The notes under the pieces were generated by a model. It was not told where the DNA came from. It saw only the letters and a program-made list of their open reading frames with translations, and ran no database searches. 64,000 nucleotides of DNA from Ianthella basta. Its lineage: Eukaryota > Porifera > Demospongiae > Verongiida > Ianthellidae. Below are positions 21,978-64,000 of this stretch, piece by piece. How positions within the stretch are numbered: position 1 is the stretch's first letter; each line of letters starts with the position of its first letter. Both the position numbers and the translations under genes were made by a program. Where the stretch lies: the NCBI GenBank assembly GCA_964019415.1, contig OZ025875.1, positions 547,501-611,500 on the forward strand, written 5' to 3'.

Positions 21978-26470
<4,493 letters not shown>

Positions 26471-52993: not shown

Positions 52994-55107
52994 CTATTGT
53001 TTAAACAGTACCGTGTAGACCAGGAAAGCAACCATTGCAAACAAGATGGCTGCCACAAGGTGTTGTGTTCTGGCCATTCGGCGCTCCAATTTCTGCCCCA
53101 CTTCAACCAAACTTGACAGCTAGCAAAGATGAACGGATAGTTGAGGTCAAACAGTGCATGAATACACGATTAATGATTGATTGGTTGATTAATATTCAAT
53201 TACTAAAGACTTGCCTGCAACTCCAGTAGTTTGAGATCATTAGACGGCAGAGGTGACGGTTCAGGCTTGAGTGATACAGAGACTGAGGGCTGCTTAGTGG
53301 GGGCACTGGTTGCCATGGGAACAGGAGGAGGTGGGCTCTCTGTGGGTGGAGCCTTGATGGCAGAGGCCTTGCTCGATTCATCGACAAGTCGACAGTAGAG
53401 CCTGCATGGAGAGAGGGAGGGAAGTGGTAGGGGATAGGAGACCTCACACTCAGACTGAGCTGGATTGAGGTAGCCACTATCTTTACTAGCAGCCTACGCT
53501 TGGTAGGACACTCACATGGTCTCCAACACATTCTCTTTGCTCACATTCCTCCAGAAGGCCAGTAGCTCGGATGCATCCTGGTCCACAGGACAGACCTGAA
53601 TGAGGAACTTGTCCTGTGACACTGGCCCAAGGTGTTCCTGAGGGTCTGCAGCAGCAGGTGAGGAAGACATTGTATGTACTTGATGTATACATAAGTTCTC
53701 TCAGCTCAGTGATAGCCTGTGCATGTGTTGCGTGAGATCGTACCAAGTAGGAGATGTATGTGTATGTTCATTGACTGTCCAGGGTCAATCTTGCTAATGT
53801 TGGGCTTGACTCGGTATCTACTTGGAGCAGTGGTCTTGATCTGGAAGGAGGAAGGGAGGGGGAGGGGGAGGAGGAGGGGAGGAGGAGGAGGAGGAGGAGG
53901 AGGAGGGGGAGAAGGAGGAGGAGGAGGGGAGGAGGAGGAGGAGGGGGAGGGGGAGGGGGAGGGGGAGGGAGAGGAGGAAGAGGGGGAGGAGGACGAAGAC
54001 GTGGAGGAGGAGGAGGAGGAAGAATGGAGTTTACATGTGTGTATATGAGTGCATGTGTATGTATGTATGTGTATGTTTGTATCACACACAGTATGTTGGG
54101 TATATGTGCTTAGCGTTAACTGCAGACAATGTGCTCAGTACACAGAGTTGCTATCACTCTCACCTTGTAAGTAATGGTTTCAGAGTGTTGGTTGGTGAAA
54201 GTGAGGACAGCACGAGGGCTACGATCACCATTATCTGTGAGCTTGGAGAACACAACCTCTCTCGATGGGCTGGAAGGAGGGGAGGAAGGGGAGTAGAGGG
54301 AAGGAGATGGGAGGGAGAGAGGAGAGGGGAGGGGACAGTTAGGAGAAAGTACAGACAAGCTGTCACACTGGCTTCACCAGTCCCCAAACAGCTGGAAGGA
54401 AGGTGAAGGGTGAGCTACAACTTACAGACAGATAGTGGAGGACAGTCAACACAAATGATGCGTACACAGTGAAACCTGTCTAAGATGGTCACTGTGTTAG
54501 GCAGCCACCAGGCCCCAAATAGCCTTATAGCATTGCAGTTTATCTCTGTAGAGCAGCCACCTCTCCACATAGATAAGTTAGAACTGGCCCAGAGGTTGCT
54601 GTCTTAGGCAGGTGTCACTGCAATTATAAATGAAGCTAATAAACAACCAGCGTCCTTCTGAGCTTCACCACTATCCAATACCAGGAGGCTCCCATACTTG
54701 GTGACTATTGCAGAGTGAGTGATCCCCAATCAAACACACACACTCCTAGTAGCAATCACACTTTGTTGTACTACAGTTTTCTGTTCACACACACACACAT
54801 CAGTGTCCTTCTCCTGCACTTGCACAAAACCCATGCGCACAGACACACTTCCCAACCTCATCTTCAACAACGCGTGGACGCCACTGCCTTCCATCTCTTC
54901 CTCCTCCTCCTCCCCCTCAAAGTCTGCAGAGGTAAGCGTTGGTCCAGACGACAAAGAGCGTTGGGGGCCTGCACCTTGCATTGCAAGGATCTTCTCCACT
55001 TGACGACGACGAATCACAGTATTGGTGTCACCACTGAATCGTTGCCGTGGTGACCTGGCCAAGTTGCTACTGTCATCAAATCGTACCTAACGCAAGAAAG
55101 ATTCACA

Positions 55108-55198
<91 letters not shown>

Positions 55199-56388
55199 GC
55201 TTCCTCTGAAGTGGAATAGACGCGGCATTCCCTTCCTCATCTCCCAGCTCTGACGGGTCCAAGAAATCTCCAGTGGGCATTGGGTGGTCCTTGTCACTGA
55301 TAGAATATTCTCTTCTATATTGTTCAAACAGCTCTTGTGTGAAGACAAACTCCCATGTGTCCTGTATGGAATGGGAATGGGAATGGGAATGGGATTTAAT
55401 GCAAAAGTATTAAACTATTAGACTGGTACATTACGTGATCTCCAATAAGAAAAAAATGAATATATTTACAAGAAGTATATAATCATGTCCAATCACGCTT
55501 ACCTCTCCTCCATATCGAGCGAGGAGCTGGTCCGGAGCAATGAGCTCCTGAACATCTGCCTTGGATGCAAACCTATTAGCAAGTCAAGTAATCATTGATT
55601 AATACAAGTATACAAGGATTAAATAACTATTTGTCAACTAGAGAATTAATAACCCACTTCACTCTCTTGGTAGCCGCTTCACTGAGCATCGTCTTGACAA
55701 CGGCCCAGGCAGCTATTTTAAAAGATAGTATGTCATACATACTAGTATAAATTAAGGCAATTAATTCCATATCTATGTTAATACTAAGACGAACCATGAA
55801 GGACCCAGGGAAGGTCATATACCAGGAGGTAGTCTGTAGGGGGAGAACCCTGCATTCATTAGATGTGGGCTGAACCAACAGAAATAGGCAGGGCTTTACC
55901 TAAAGTGTCCGGAAAGTAGTCCCTAAACAGAGTAATGACAACCTTCACCATTTCAAGGTCCTTGACGGGAGGGGGGAGGGAGGGGAAGGGGAGGGGGGAG
56001 GGGAGGGGGAGGAGAGAGGGAAGGGGAGGGGGTAGGGAAGGAGGAAGGGGAGGAGGAAGGGGAGGGGAAAGGGAGGGGGGAGGGTAGCAATTAGACTATA
56101 ATAATTTGTGAGTGACTCCAAAATGTTAAGATGCTGTGAGGCCCATACTCACTGCGTTGGCAAGCCCTGTATCTGTCATGTCGAAAAAGAGAACGAGTTT
56201 TTGGTCTTTTTTGATCCAAAACTGCAAAAGTACAGCAACATTAAATTTTCATAAAATTATACAATTATTACCAAATTTTGGCAGGCATTCCAAATACAGC
56301 AGTTCAAATTTATCATCAAAATTTAGATTTTAGTGAGTCATTCAAGTATATATTCAGAAAGGCAGAGTCTCATGCATTTTGGTGATGC

Positions 56389-56450
<62 letters not shown>

Positions 56451-58300
56451 ATAGGGTAGCAAAAGGGAGGAAGGAGCCATGACACAAATCACCCAATCAG
56501 TTATGGCACACACCAGGCTCACATATCCGACTCCCACTGCGAGTCTGACCGCGATCATAAGCCAAGCCTGATTCTACAATAGACCTGTCCAGAGACTCAA
56601 TTGTTATATCTAAAATAGGAATGGGACCATTATAGCAAGCAATTGGGTTAACAGCAGTTGGGAGAAGGGTCACCATTGATGCCATCCTTTTTCCTCCACA
56701 ATAAGCAAGCAATCTGAAGAGGAGAAGAGAGGGAATGTTGCTAGCAAGTCAACAATTCCTGCGTGTCTACCGTTCAGTGTTACAGACAGAGACCTCTCTA
56801 AAACAACCAGCCTCCCTGGCCCAAACTAGCTCTTAAACATTGCAGTCTACGTATCTCCGTAATGCAGTCACTACTGTTCAAGGACAGTGATATCTTGTAC
56901 GCAGCCACTACTCACCATCCTCTCACACACACTGTCACCACTCACCATCCTCTCATACACACTGTCACCACTCACTATCGTCTCACACACACTGTCACCA
57001 CTCACCATCCTCTCACACACATTGTCACAACTCACCATCCTCTCATAAGCTGTCACCACTCACCATCCTCTCACACACACTGTCACCACTCACCATCCTC
57101 TCACACACACTGTCACCACTCACCATCCTCTCACACACACTGTCGCCACTCACCATCCTCTCATAAGCTGTCACCACTCACCATCCCCTCATACACACTG
57201 TCACCACTCACCATCCTCTCACACATACTGTCACCACTCATCGTCCTCTCACACACACTGTCACTACTCACCATCCTCTCATAAGCTGTCACCATATTTC
57301 CTCCAGTGTGCCTGATGTACTTGGAACAGAACCACAGGTCTCGCTGGACACGTCGGATGTCTCTGGGATCATACAGAGACTCATCTGCACAGTAGCAGGT
57401 CATGTGATGGTCATGTGATCATCATGTGACAGCACCATGGCAACAATACGGCCTGCTCATCACAAGCTGCTCAGTATACTACCTTCACATAGCCGCCATT
57501 TCAAGTTTACTTCTCCTTCAGAATGTAGGCTAGGGGCTAAGCTGTCAAACAGTGTCAAGTATACCTCACTTCTGGCTGACAGCCAAGAGCCAATTGGTGC
57601 CTTCTGTGACTAAATGAACTTATGCAGGAGTACACTCCTGACTTATGCTTGGTGATGTCTCTATGTGACATCGTTGCAGGAAAGTCCATTAACACCGCCA
57701 CTTTGGCACCAATTAGTTCTTGGGGGATGGGTGGAGGCAGGGCAGCTGACGTGTTTAGACGACTCACTCCCTATTCCATTTTTCATTTGGTGAAACCCAA
57801 GTAGGTGGACAACAGGACGGCTATGGGAGACTATTGCTATACTGTGCCTGTACTGAAACCACAGGTAGCATTACATACTGTACTGTTGAGAAGTATACAG
57901 TATGTATTAATACAAGGTGTACTATTCGAATACAGTGTGCATGTACTGAAGCGAATGTACAGACCTTTTGAAATAGTGTCCAGTACTCTGTTCTGTAGAG
58001 ACCTTGCCTTTAAAATGATTTCCTGCACGTCAGCAAAGGGCGTAAGCATCAAACCATACAAGCACCACACACTCAGCGTATCATGGGCACACAGACACTC
58101 AACACTATCCCGCCAACTGTAGTATCACCAACAAGCACTTGACCATTGAACTAGCAAAGGACTAGACCTATCGCTGCAATACACTCTATTCGCTCGTACC
58201 CTACAACCCTTGGATGGCGCCCCGTATGTTGGTGTCTAGTCCTGTGCGAATAATGTATACAGAAACTCACTGCTTCAACGGGATCTATGCCAGCAGCCAT
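52994..58300 (-). CDS. MOSPD2: MOSPD2-like ER tail-anchored CRAL-TRIO/MSP contact-site protein
   Basis: Seventeen exons on the minus strand are 58300-58271, 58022-57965, 57384-57272, 56713-56674, 56609-56512, 56221-56153, 55960-55900, 55833-55795, 55712-55658, 55572-55503, 55361-55197, 55086-54857, 54269-54164, 53840-53744, 53645-53516, 53401-53215 and 53119-52994. They total 1674 nt (557 residues; human ~518). MOSPD2 is an ER membrane tether whose MSP domain binds FFAT motifs. The CRAL-TRIO part is seen in YDPRDIRRVQRDLW, LVLFFDMTDTGL and LVYDLPWVLH. The MSP domain holds SPSREVVF and KTTAPSRYRVKPN...DPGQSMNIHI. The C-terminal helix is AAILFAMVAFLVYTVLF. The last intron is GC-AG (CAG|GCAAGT). 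The intron after exon 4 is only 64 bp. The donor of exon 5 (GGT|GTGTGC) was chosen because it alone keeps frame; an overlapping GTGAGC donor does not. Confidence 0.92.
53845..54024 (+). repeat. GGA-rich purine tract in MOSPD2 intron 13
   Basis: About 180 bp of GGA/GGAGG repeats occur on the + strand (TCC-rich on the transcribed strand). Many GG and GGG runs give G-quadruplex potential. The transcribed strand forms the pyrimidine tract of the exon 14 acceptor at 53841-53842. Confidence 0.9.
54467..54620. mobile_element. MITE with CAGTGAAACCTGTCTAAG inverted ends
   Basis: The left end cagtgaaacctgtctaagat and the right end (reverse complement cagtgacacctgcctaagac) are inverted repeats of about 25 bp that bracket 154 bp without coding capacity. 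It lies in MOSPD2 intron 12. Related elements are at 36237 and 48335. Confidence 0.78.
55108..55196 (+). repeat. (CA)n array abutting the MOSPD2 exon 11 donor
   Basis: On the minus strand exon 11 ends at 55197 and the intron starts at 55196 with about 42 GT dinucleotides. The 5' splice site is the first GT of the array. Confidence 0.97.
55966..56090 (+). repeat. G-rich GGGAGGGG tract in MOSPD2 intron 6
   Basis: About 120 bp of GGGAGGGGA repeats with many runs of four to six G. On the transcribed strand this is the C-rich tract before the exon 7 acceptor. Confidence 0.9.
56390..56448 (+). repeat. (GT)n microsatellite in MOSPD2 intron 5
   Basis: About 29 GT dinucleotides on the + strand. Confidence 0.95.
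56905..57298 (-). repeat. 28/30-bp minisatellite spanning the MOSPD2 exon 3 splice donor
   Basis: About 13 tandem units of 28 or 30 bp, read on the minus strand as GAGAGGATGGTGAGTGGTGA plus a short spacer. The first unit (57298-57271) overlaps the last coding bases of exon 3 and its donor (ATG|GTGAGT). Every later unit repeats the exon end and an intact or nearly intact donor. Two intronic units share the TTATGAGAGG variant with the exonic unit. Confidence 0.9.
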
Positions 58301-60294: not shown

Positions 60295-61926
60295 CTATTG
60301 CTGAGGCCAGTTGTTGACATCCTTTGCCCGTCCTGGAAAGGCCACATGGCAGAAGGCACAAAGTGGTTTGTAGACAGGTTCTTCATCCTTGGTCATCGTT
60401 ACAGAGACCCACTGAATGTCAGCTACAGTGCGACCTCGACGAAGGCCCCTCAGTGCTGCCAGTGCATTGTCCTCTGCACACTGCACTGTTATGTCGGCAA
60501 GGCTAGCTGTGGGTGAGTCATCACGACACCTAAGGGCAGAGCAAAACAAACTAAGCATTTCTTCAGGAACTGGGTGAGGCTTAATGAACCTAACGGCAAC
60601 ATCTTGGACATCATTTGGAGGAGGGTCAGCCTTCCTAATGTCTTCTGCAATGCGAAGGAAGACCAAGGAGTACTTAGAGTTTTCAATTAGGCGACGGTCC
60701 AGCTCACTCATATCACCATCAAATACCAGCATCTCCTTTAATATCTTGTACTGACTGTCAAAGTAGGAGTCGAAGTCAGCAAGTTTCTCATAGTGGGGAA
60801 AGAATTCCGCTTTGAAGTCATTCTTAAGAGGTGCACCAAGAGCTTCCCAAAACACACAACGATACTCTTCAGGGATGTTGTGAGAGTTAAGCTCGTCAAT
60901 CACTTTCTGGGTTGTGAAATTGTCAGGAAGGCCACGTCTAATTGACTCAAAGTCATCCTTGAAACGGGTGTGTAGGATAAGCTCACAACATTGCTCTTCC
61001 AATATGGTCTTGGTACTGTGTGCGAGCAGTATTTTGGCAAGGGGAGGACGAAGATCACTAGAGTACTTTTCAATGGTTTGACTGACAGCAATTATAAATA
61101 ACCCAGAAAATACACGATGTATATTGCAAAATTGCAAGACACAATCAGTGATCAAGCAAATATGCCACCAGTCAGATGGCTTCGCAAAAGAAAGGATCAC
61201 CTCAATGCACCTGATGACAGCAGTGTAAGGAGTACCCAGTTCGATAAGTCGGCGGCACCACTCAACCACTGTGATGTCATTGGCAAGTCGCATGTAGTAT
61301 GGAACAATATAATCTTCAAAATCCTTTTGCAGGCTTGGCCTGTATGCTGGGCTCTTCATCAGAGCTGCCATTAAGGCTTCACGAGACGGTTTGGCTTTTC
61401 TCAGCCCTTCCACTTTGTTCTTAAAGCGTTTCATAAACTCCTCAGCAAAGGTCTCGCGGTATTCGGGAGTTATCACATCTGAACTTCGGACGCCGTCCCC
61501 AGTCGGTCCTACAGCTTCCTCCTCTTTCAGCTTCCGGTACTCGTCGTGCTCGTAGGCCAAGTCAGCCAGCACGATGTTCTTGGCTGCTAATGTCTCCTTC
61601 AGGTGCTTGAGCTTGCTGTTATTGAAGGCCACTTCTTCCAGGGTCCACTCGTTAACACCCGTGCCAGAAATAGCGGCAATTGTGACCCTGTACACAGTGT
61701 CTGAGAACCTGACGGACATCAAACCGATGGTCTTCCTACCCCAAATGAGCTTCTTGGTCTTGTTGGAGAGGTCTTTTTCTATGGCATCGCGGACGATTCT
61801 TAGCTGATCTCTCACGTATTCTGGGCATTCATCTAGTGATTCAAACACTCGTACATTAATACCTCGATCGTACCCTCCCCGTACTACACAGCTGCAGCAT
61901 TGGTCAAAACAGCCTGGTCCAGCCAT
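60295..61926 (-). CDS. Intronless gene of unknown family, copy 1
   Basis: A single uninterrupted 543-codon frame runs from ATG at 61926 to TAG at 60295. I do not recognise the family. The protein is soluble, with no signal peptide or membrane helix. The N-terminal ~120 residues look like a mixed alpha/beta domain (GLMSVRFSDTVYRVTIAAIS). The middle and C-terminal parts are alpha-helical with repeated EFFPHYEKL and FWEALGAPL-type segments. The C-terminus has a small Cys-rich end, PLCAFCHVAFPG, before NNWPQQ. The start Met is followed by CFDQCCSCVV, a cysteine cluster that could be lipid-modified (inference). The absence of introns is striking beside neighbours with 6-23 exons. This suggests a retrocopy origin or a gene family spread by duplication. 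A second copy begins 1.5 kb away. Confidence 0.8.
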   Translation of the reverse strand: MAGPGCFDQCCSCVVRGGYDRGINVRVFESLDECPEYVRDQLRIVRDAIEKDLSNKTKKLIWGRKTIGLMSVRFSDTVYRVTIAAISGTGVNEWTLEEVAFNNSKLKHLKETLAAKNIVLADLAYEHDEYRKLKEEEAVGPTGDGVRSSDVITPEYRETFAEEFMKRFKNKVEGLRKAKPSREALMAALMKSPAYRPSLQKDFEDYIVPYYMRLANDITVVEWCRRLIELGTPYTAVIRCIEVILSFAKPSDWWHICLITDCVLQFCNIHRVFSGLFIIAVSQTIEKYSSDLRPPLAKILLAHSTKTILEEQCCELILHTRFKDDFESIRRGLPDNFTTQKVIDELNSHNIPEEYRCVFWEALGAPLKNDFKAEFFPHYEKLADFDSYFDSQYKILKEMLVFDGDMSELDRRLIENSKYSLVFLRIAEDIRKADPPPNDVQDVAVRFIKPHPVPEEMLSLFCSALRCRDDSPTASLADITVQCAEDNALAALRGLRRGRTVADIQWVSVTMTKDEEPVYKPLCAFCHVAFPGRAKDVNNWPQQ

Positions 61927-63231
61927 AACGCTGTGCCGTGGACGCCCACTGATCGAGAAGAGGTGTGGCCAGTTGCTACTGGATACTGACGGGTCACACC
62001 CAGCCTAAGTTGGGGGATCTCTGGAGATAGATAACGTAACGTTGTATGCACTACGCCAAGACAGGCCCGTAGGCTGGAGGGGTTCGGAAGAACACCCCCA
62101 CAGCACTGGATAAGTTCCACCTGCCACTGAAAGCTCTAGTTACATTTTAGTCCCACAATTTTGTCAATTCCATGTTAACTTCTAATACCTAGGCCTGTGC
62201 GTAGTAGCTAATGGCTCAACTGAACACTGCTCAGCAGCACTCATAGTATTGCACTGTGTTCCACTTTGGCATGACAGCCCACCCTCCCCCATTTTAATTT
62301 CTGACCTGGCTACGGGCCTGCAAGAGTAGTCTTATCTACTATTAACTACACTCATTACTGTACAGATCTGGAAATAGATAATATGTTCCTCAAAGGCTGT
62401 GCTGCACAATGATTACACAACGGTTCCAACATTAATCTCTAGCTATCATAGCTAGCTACAGAATAGCAAGTTAAGTTAGCTAGCTAGTTTAATAGCCTTG
62501 CACATCCAGGCCTATGTATTATATATATGGGGAACTATTTTTCCATGTATAAAATTAATAGGCCTGGATCAGGATGTGTGATGATCTCTCTAAACAGCCA
62601 GCCTCTTTGGCACCATGCAAATATATAGCACCAACATAACTAGCACTGAACTGAGCTGAAAGCACGCTGTCAACGCAAACTATCCTGCGTCAAAACAAAG
62701 ACAAACATGGAAGTGATTTGTGCAGGATGCAAGCTCCCTGTTGCTATGAGTAAGCTTGCTGATGACACTCGAGTTCAACCACTACTGTAGCACAAGTCTC
62801 TAGCTACCAATACCATGTGATCTGACAGTTGATCTGAAATGAAACTTAGCCTAATTAACACATTACTGCTGATAAGGAATAGATAGAAAGTTACAGAAAG
62901 TGACCATATTAAATTGGTGAGCACACTGCACTCAATGCTACAGAGAAACAAACCTTCAAGGCCCACACACAATGTGTTAAAATGGTCCAACATTAGTCCG
63001 TAGCTATACAGTGTGTCTGTCACTGTGGTCCTGAGGGAAGTAGTGGCGATACTGGGTGAGGGCTAGGAGGGCGGAGGCATGAGTGAGGGGCTGCGAAGAC
63101 CAGAAGGGAAACAGGGAGTCAGGCCCTCTGTTGTACCCGTGGAAGTCAGTCGGAGTGAAGTGGCCCATGTCTAGCCCCACTGCACAACACTCCCACAGTA
63201 CACTATGTGGAAGATTTGCACTTGACAACAT
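61927..63231. other. Spacer between the two copies of the intronless gene
   Basis: No gene is supported. It should hold the promoter of copy 1 (near 61930-62150). It includes short palindromic agctagctagct runs at 62465-62490. A minus-strand frame at 63004-63231 has no recognisable similarity and was not accepted. Confidence 0.5.
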
Positions 63232-63424: not shown

Positions 63425-64000
63425 CTATTGCTGAGGCCAGTTGTTGACATCCTTTGCCCATCCTGGAAAGGCCATTTGGCAGAAGGCACAGAGTGGTTTG
63501 TAAACAGGTTCTTCATCCTTGGTCATCGTTACAGAGACCCATTTAATCTCAGCTACAGTACGACCTCGACGAAGGCCCTTCAGTGCTGCCAGTGCATTGT
63601 CCTCTGCACACTGCACTGTCAGGTTGGCAAAGACAGCTGTGCGTGGGTCATCACGCCACCCAAGAGCAGAGCAAAATTCCTTAAACATCCATTCAGGAAC
63701 TCCATGAGGCTTAAGAAACCTATCAATGGCATCTTGGACAACCATTGGAGGAGGCTTAGCAGTCCTAAGTTCATTTTCGATGCAAAGTAAGATCTGCGAG
63801 CACTTAGAATGCATAAGGATGTGACGGTCCAGCTTACCTAGATGACTATCAAATTCCAGTATAATGTCACAGAAAGAGCTGTAGCCTTCGAGTTTCTCAT
63901 AGTTGGGAAAGAACTCCAATTTCCAGCCTTCTTTAAGAGGTGCACCAAGAGCTTCCCAAAACACACAATGAAACTCTTTAGGGATATTGTGAGATTTGAA
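63425..64000 (-). CDS. Intronless gene of unknown family, copy 2 (partial at window edge)
   Basis: The frame is open from the window edge (64000) to the TAG at 63425, 192 codons including the stop. It matches the C-terminal part of copy 1: FWEALGAPLK, ALAALKGLRRGRTVAEI, VSVTMTKDEEPVYKPLCAFC and the identical end KDVNNWPQQ. It lacks several residues between the FFPNYEKL and LDRHILMHSK segments relative to copy 1, without loss of frame, and shows no stop. The 5' part lies outside the window. Confidence 0.8.
   Translation of the reverse strand, partial: FKSHNIPKEFHCVFWEALGAPLKEGWKLEFFPNYEKLEGYSSFCDIILEFDSHLGKLDRHILMHSKCSQILLCIENELRTAKPPPMVVQDAIDRFLKPHGVPEWMFKEFCSALGWRDDPRTAVFANLTVQCAEDNALAALKGLRRGRTVAEIKWVSVTMTKDEEPVYKPLCAFCQMAFPGWAKDVNNWPQQ

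Follow-up and report, generated by a model that had tools for sequence, protein, structure and literature searches.

Intron 3 of a MOSPD2-like gene in Ianthella basta carries a tandem array that is very probably a mirage-type intronic minisatellite, copied from the end of exon 3 together with its 5′ splice site. The arrangement recurs within this genome, and it is the recurrence that is new here; arrays at exon boundaries are not a new kind of structure. The window (the whole 64,000 nt stretch that was analysed, C8:547501–611500) belongs to a genome of 209 Mb in 96 contigs, and the gene, its exon 3 and the intron 3 array are all on the minus strand of the window.

Exon 3, intron 3 and the tandem array

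Same-strand translated exons between about 57.4 and 53.4 kb matched CRAL_TRIO (PF00650, E = 5.7e-16) and Motile_Sperm (MSP, PF00635, E = 2e-20) in a domain search. We take this domain pairing to be that of MOSPD2, in agreement with the gene call of the preliminary description. Exon 3 (57272–57384, 113 nt) ends GAGAGGATG, followed by the donor GTGAGT just as described, and this first, exon-proximal 5′ splice site (ATG|GTGAGT, 57266–57271) gives an in-frame join to exon 4. Intron 3 (56714–57271) is 558 nt long and ends with the acceptor TCTCCTCTTCAG|ATT, whose final base (56714) lies outside the array. Joined through the first donor, exon 3, exon 4 (IACLLWRKKDGIN, 56674–56713) and exon 5 (DITIESLDRSIVESGLAYDR..., 56523–56609) read ...MVTAYERM|IACLLWRKKDGIN|DITIESLDR..., with the frame kept. 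The peptide presumably resembles the human sequence ...TLKMLDESFQWRKEISVNDLNESSI..., and homology over the exon 3/4 junction is judged from this human sequence; a PDB search of the junction gave no significant match, and the Pfam match begins past it. Intron boundaries in the gene were set by eye, and some cuts after exon 5 are off by 1–2 bases. The joined exon model loses frame past exon 5, where it probably lacks a small exon; intron 3 is unaffected. Further along the gene, exon 11 ends ...CAG and its donor leads directly into a (GT)46 microsatellite (55104–55196, minus strand), which occupies most of the 110 nt intron that follows.

The array (56906–57294) begins 23 nt inside exon 3, taking in the final 23 nt of the exon, and is built of 28 and 30 bp units within a 118 bp higher-order repeat. 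TRF called it twice, with a period of 30 (56906–57281, 12.7 copies) and with a period of 118 (56906–57294, 3.3 copies, 93% match). Divided at its donors, the intron yields 12 complete units, ten of 30 bp and two of 28 bp, in the order 30, 30, 30, 28, 30, 30, 30, 28, 30, 30, 30 and 30 bp, and then a trailing donor at 56915; with the exon tail as a further member, this matches an earlier count of about 13 copies. The exon tail is a member of the 28 bp type. It sits in a 28 bp slot 118 bp ahead of the first intronic 28 bp unit (57154–57181), and the second, identical unit (57036–57063) is another 118 bp on. Self-identity of the array is 91.2% at an offset of 118, compared with 80.2% at an offset of 30. 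The longest suffix of exon 3 with an exact copy in the intron measures 23 nt (29 nt including GTGAGT), and these 29 nt occur there twice, at 57176, within the first 28 bp unit, and at 57058. In 2000 simulated first-order Markov introns the longest suffix repeat did not exceed 13 nt, and the expectation for a 29-mer to recur by chance is about 2e-15. The repeat unit does, then, include the coding end and the donor, as had been proposed, and the array crosses the exon–intron boundary at 57272/57271. It was said to fill the intron, which was an overstatement, as it takes up about 65% of it (57271 to 56906 of 57271–56714). The related suggestion of intron growth agrees with the lengths, the array having extended intron 3 to 558 nt, whereas the other introns tabulated for the gene, eight in all, measure 64–301 nt.

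A DNA search of the 209 Mb genome with the exon tail plus array as query gave a full-length match in the window alone, which rules out a dispersed element; the search skips simple repeats, and its match counts are lower bounds. An intron born from the array is ruled out by the acceptor, which lies beyond it.

Thirteen boundary positions occur across exon 3 and intron 3, the true donor and 12 further ones. The true donor (position 1) scores 10.0 on a human 5′ splice site weight table. Its nearest competitor, position 2 (57236–57241), reads ATGAGT, so no GT donor is possible there, and it is the sole dead one among the 12. Ten of them (positions 3–10, 12 and 13) are ATG|GTGAGT, the same as the true donor, and position 11 is the weaker ATA|GTGAGT. 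GTGAGT is therefore kept at 11 of the 12, and the ladder of near-identical donors that the RNA was said to offer is present. Exon 4 is read in the frame of exon 3 only when the donor used adds a number of nucleotides divisible by 3. Donors 3 and 4 add 60 and 90 nt, open and in frame (+20 and +30 aa), while donors 5–13 all reach a single TGA (57163–57161, in the first 28 bp unit), 108 nt past exon 3. After splicing, the frame is open only from donors 1, 3 and 4 of the 12 GT donors. The earlier statement that 30 bp units keep the frame and 28 bp units shift it thus needs qualifying: the 28 bp shift is real, but it is hidden by the TGA shared by donors 5–13 and is of little consequence, and only donors 3 and 4 remain open in frame.

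Exon-end arrays in other genes

Individual arrays that include exon sequence are certain. At the level of sequence, the design of copied exon ends is confirmed in HTATSF1 and NIT2, and it is probably present in a DDX11-like gene. The HTATSF1 case was a chance find, a 41 bp array at an exon in the flank of locus L014, beside the array that had been matched by similarity, which is antisense to the gene. PDB entry 6y50 aligns without gaps over the junction CCYLK|RESV (E = 1.4e-15). The last 20 nt of the exon have five further copies in the intron; all five keep GTGGG as a donor, and each of these donors would lead to a stop. NIT2 is present as two copies on contig C1, 312 kb apart (L107 at 534 kb and L108 at 846 kb). 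In L108, PDB entry 2w1v matches up to the last residue ahead of the donor (E = 1.4e-30), and the exon peptide of L107 is identical to that of L108 in the 70 residues compared. The two copies share the exon-end array, with four further copies of a 12 nt exon tail in each piece, none of which keeps GT, unlike the repeats of MOSPD2 and HTATSF1. At L013, the following exons match DEAD_2 (E = 1.1e-7) and rad3 (E = 2.2e-12), and the gene is presumably DDX11-like, the family support coming from neighbouring exons only. Its 27 bp units keep the frame with no stop over 12 donors, so the repeat may be coding there.

Further loci came from the search with the exon tail plus array, which returned at least 41 matches, the window and 40 weaker ones (67–76% identity), several of the latter sharing one array. 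Twenty-four loci were read with their sense-strand flanks (L010–L018 except L016, a repeat of the L015 array, and L075–L090). In 6 of the 24, the array starts within about 25 nt of a gene-supported donor: RFC1 (L079; PDB 6vvo, E = 2.9e-10, to the last residue), cathepsin X (L086; PDB 1deu, E = 9.4e-9), MCM2 (L090; PDB 6raw, E = 1.3e-19, to the last residue), a tyrosine kinase exon (L011, E = 3.7e-8), L010, where the following exons match RhoGEF (E = 8.4e-7) and the exon ahead of the array is without a match, and the DDX11-like L013. Seven more show an open frame that runs to a donor at the array (L081, L087, L089) or ends about 20–35 nt short of it (L075, L083, L085, L088); the peptides of L081, L083, L085, L087, L088 and L089 gave no family match. 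The array is on the acceptor side at L017 and at L078, the latter with an exon-like frame on the opposite strand. No clear donor-array case was seen in the flanks of L012, L015, L018, L076, L077, L080, L082 and L084. The arrays that begin at donors of MCM2, RFC1 and cathepsin X, and those of the CDO1 and FRG1-like exons described below, contain little or no exon sequence. At L079 (C18:6786058–6786874), most of the 185 nt RFC1 intron consists of a GT-rich array that starts with the first base of the donor, and the next exon (VLHNL) comes after the intron. Arrays rich in CT adjoin acceptors in several introns (window 53846–54020 and 55967–56084, minus strand; L017; L078), and repeats may therefore be seeded at either end of an intron, with a composition particular to that end.

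Origin of the intron 3 array

The order of events that would account for the array starts with tandem duplication, as a 28 bp unit, of a short segment that takes in both the final bases of exon 3 and the adjoining 5′ splice site. One unit copy would then have changed to the 30 bp form (CTTA to TGTGTG), and blocks of four units, 118 bp long, would have been amplified via slippage or unequal exchange, giving a longer intron. The conserved protein would be produced from the first, exon-proximal donor, with the downstream donors as neutral by-products, ignored or now and then used; donors 3 and 4, if used, would add 20 or 30 residues, and donors 5–13 would give a truncated message that is probably degraded. 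Support comes from the 118 bp register that the exon tail shares with the two 28 bp units, and from the in-frame join of exons 3 and 4 via the first donor. From the sequence we infer that copying ran from the exon to the array.

The array might instead serve regulated or bet-hedging alternative splicing, with distal donors tuning MOSPD2 output through the longer isoforms or through NMD. Such a role would be in keeping with ten donors that match the true one exactly and with the two productive sites in frame, and human IFI6 is said in PMC4526556 to yield several mRNAs via donors in downstream units. We consider it unlikely, as one stop is common to 9 of the 12 further positions and another position is dead, and the NIT2 tails lack GT in four of four copies at each of two loci, as expected if decoy donors are useless. 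Somewhat less likely again is an array that arose elsewhere in the intron and reached the exon end by conversion, so that the exon tail is the copy. The tail keeps the register of the array, and arrays can homogenise their neighbours; however, the tail codes for plausible in-frame family sequence, the units that match it are the 28 bp ones (2 of 12), although conversion would be expected to draw on the dominant 30 bp units, and the exon ends of HTATSF1 and NIT2 align gapless to solved orthologues. An assembly artefact is very improbable, given units that vary by point changes, the alternation of 28 and 30 bp, the 118 bp order, and a contiguous assembly. Least probable of all is a coding array through which exon 3 continues as a protein repeat: 108 nt past the donor are open, and the array of the DDX11-like gene is stop-free, but the in-frame TGA at 57163 speaks against this for intron 3, and the first donor is canonical and the exon 4 junction is in frame without the array.

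Arrays at donors across the genome and in other organisms

A broader proposition is that tandem repeats nucleate at 5′ splice sites across the genome, so that introns grow from their donors. This general donor-anchored rule is tentative, and we lean slightly against it. Genome-wide, ladders of three GTGAGT motifs gave 7470 matches against 9094 for the reversed motif, and those of three AGGTGAGT gave 334 against 572, with no enrichment in either; three AGGTAAGT at a spacing of 10–40 nt gave none against 29. With the reversed motifs more numerous, donor-like ladders are not over-represented as such, and GT-rich arrays are common in this genome.

The AGGTGAGT matches listed comprised 13 distinct arrays, 11 with usable flanks, and among these 2 of 11 start at an exon end by homology: cysteine dioxygenase (CDO1, L103; PDB, E = 2.2e-9) and an FRG1-like exon (L099; E = 4.7e-5, below the Pfam cut-off). 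Two more, L094 (a weak RhoGAP-like match, E = 0.1) and L101 (open frame only), are tentative exon-end arrays, and at L098 the array starts about 45 nt past an exon-like end. For GTGAGT, contig C1 was covered to 16.18 of 16.58 Mb, with 30 distinct arrays among the matches listed. Firm cases were 2 of 30, the NIT2 pair; in four of the 30 (L111, L115, L118, L119) the piece was all repeat. L043, L112, L117 and L121 are tentative exon-end arrays by open frame only, with no Pfam match above the cut-off, and the repeats of L126 and L127 look coding. The homology-backed cases (2/11 and 2/30) are not clearly above a guessed chance level of 3–6%, so the genome-wide claim is kept tentative. Among the loci found by similarity the yield is higher (6 to 13 of 24), but these were selected for resembling the MOSPD2 array, with no matched null to set beside them.

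Exon ends inside the helicase domain (20, from 117 helicase-domain matches) provided a sample of a different kind. None of the 20 had a TRF array over the match end or an exon-tail 12-mer repeated downstream, a test in which MOSPD2 exon 3 is positive, so exon copying is uncommon per exon. A tandem array starts within 50 nt past the match end in four of the 20 (L056, L057, L065, L070). As a positional control, 15 places with three copies of the mirror motif TGAGTGGA were read. This motif is mostly found within GTGAGTGGA; its list includes the NIT2 pair, and of some seven other families two (L135/L137 and L136) resemble exon-end arrays, so it is not a clean control. In L136 (C3:13000805–13001235), an exon-like ...RIHVFPVLEPFGE is followed by copies of TGGAGCCATTTGGAG|GTGTGTG, a candidate exon-end array.

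Other features were seen in passing. A 40 bp × 8 array with AG|GTGAAT units (window 23390–23721, minus strand) follows an open frame ending ...QRELDALQQLALATVEDTQQYLQACREDGR, which makes it a candidate for a second array of the exon-end type in the window; the open frame gave no family match above the cut-off. An arbitrary 10 kb piece (L051, C6:4000001–4010000) is 91.5% tandem repeat, largely of 76–77 bp units. Two long open frames (window 60298–62004 and 63428–64000, minus strand; 569 and 191+ aa) resemble each other over stretches near the C-terminus and have the appearance of tandem paralogues.

Boundary repeats of this type are already known from lancelets, and the MOSPD2 array is thus no new kind. 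PMC3087553 describes "mirages" in Adh3 and globin genes as minisatellite-like tandem duplications of exon–intron boundaries, with units of 10–160 bp, and six versus three units in two haplotypes of one gene; RT-PCR suggests that they leave regular splicing undisturbed. Further lancelet cases, PGBD5 and TnC, are given in PMC3902484. As in the lancelet, the MOSPD2 array spans the boundary (57272/57271) in tandem copies, with splice signals in its units, many of which retain them in the lancelet as well. The lancelet copies are described from the 5′ or 3′ side of introns; distinctive here are the 28/30 bp unit, the 118 bp higher-order repeat and GTGAGT in 11 of 12 further positions. Human IFI6 (6-16) likewise has a minisatellite supplying multiple splice donors, to go by the title of Turri 1995 (cited in PMC4526556 and PMC2572611), and PMC4526556, citing that work, reports that downstream units are employed as donors. 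Several donors are thus reported in use in IFI6, whereas in MOSPD2 most distal donors would, judging from sequence, truncate the protein. PMC2812944 proposes that variable human repeats at exon–intron boundaries may give new introns. Intron gain via tandem duplication is treated in PMC4974935, including repeated 24 bp AGGT segments in fission yeast, where exon sequence and splice signal are also tandemly copied. There the intron spans several copies, whereas in MOSPD2 an existing intron was lengthened from its 5′ end; in intron gain of the Rogers type both splice sites come from the duplicated segment, and here the acceptor (TCTCCTCTTCAG|ATT) is outside it. In the open-licence literature, minisatellites at exon boundaries turned up for lancelets and humans and for no other animal, alongside the AGGT repeats of fission yeast.

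Arrays such as these catch intron growth in progress, and are natural test sites for the long-standing question of how one of several identical 5′ splice sites is selected by the spliceosome. The conserved MOSPD2 protein can be made only if the proximal donor beats ten identical ones, and NIT2, with copies that lack GT, is the contrast case. If donors do nucleate repeats, the genome would hold many naturally formed rows of equal donors, and RNA could show directly which rule governs the choice among them. Should the donor-anchored pattern hold genome-wide in an animal that is not a lancelet, boundary-spanning arrays would be a general route of intron growth and no lancelet peculiarity.
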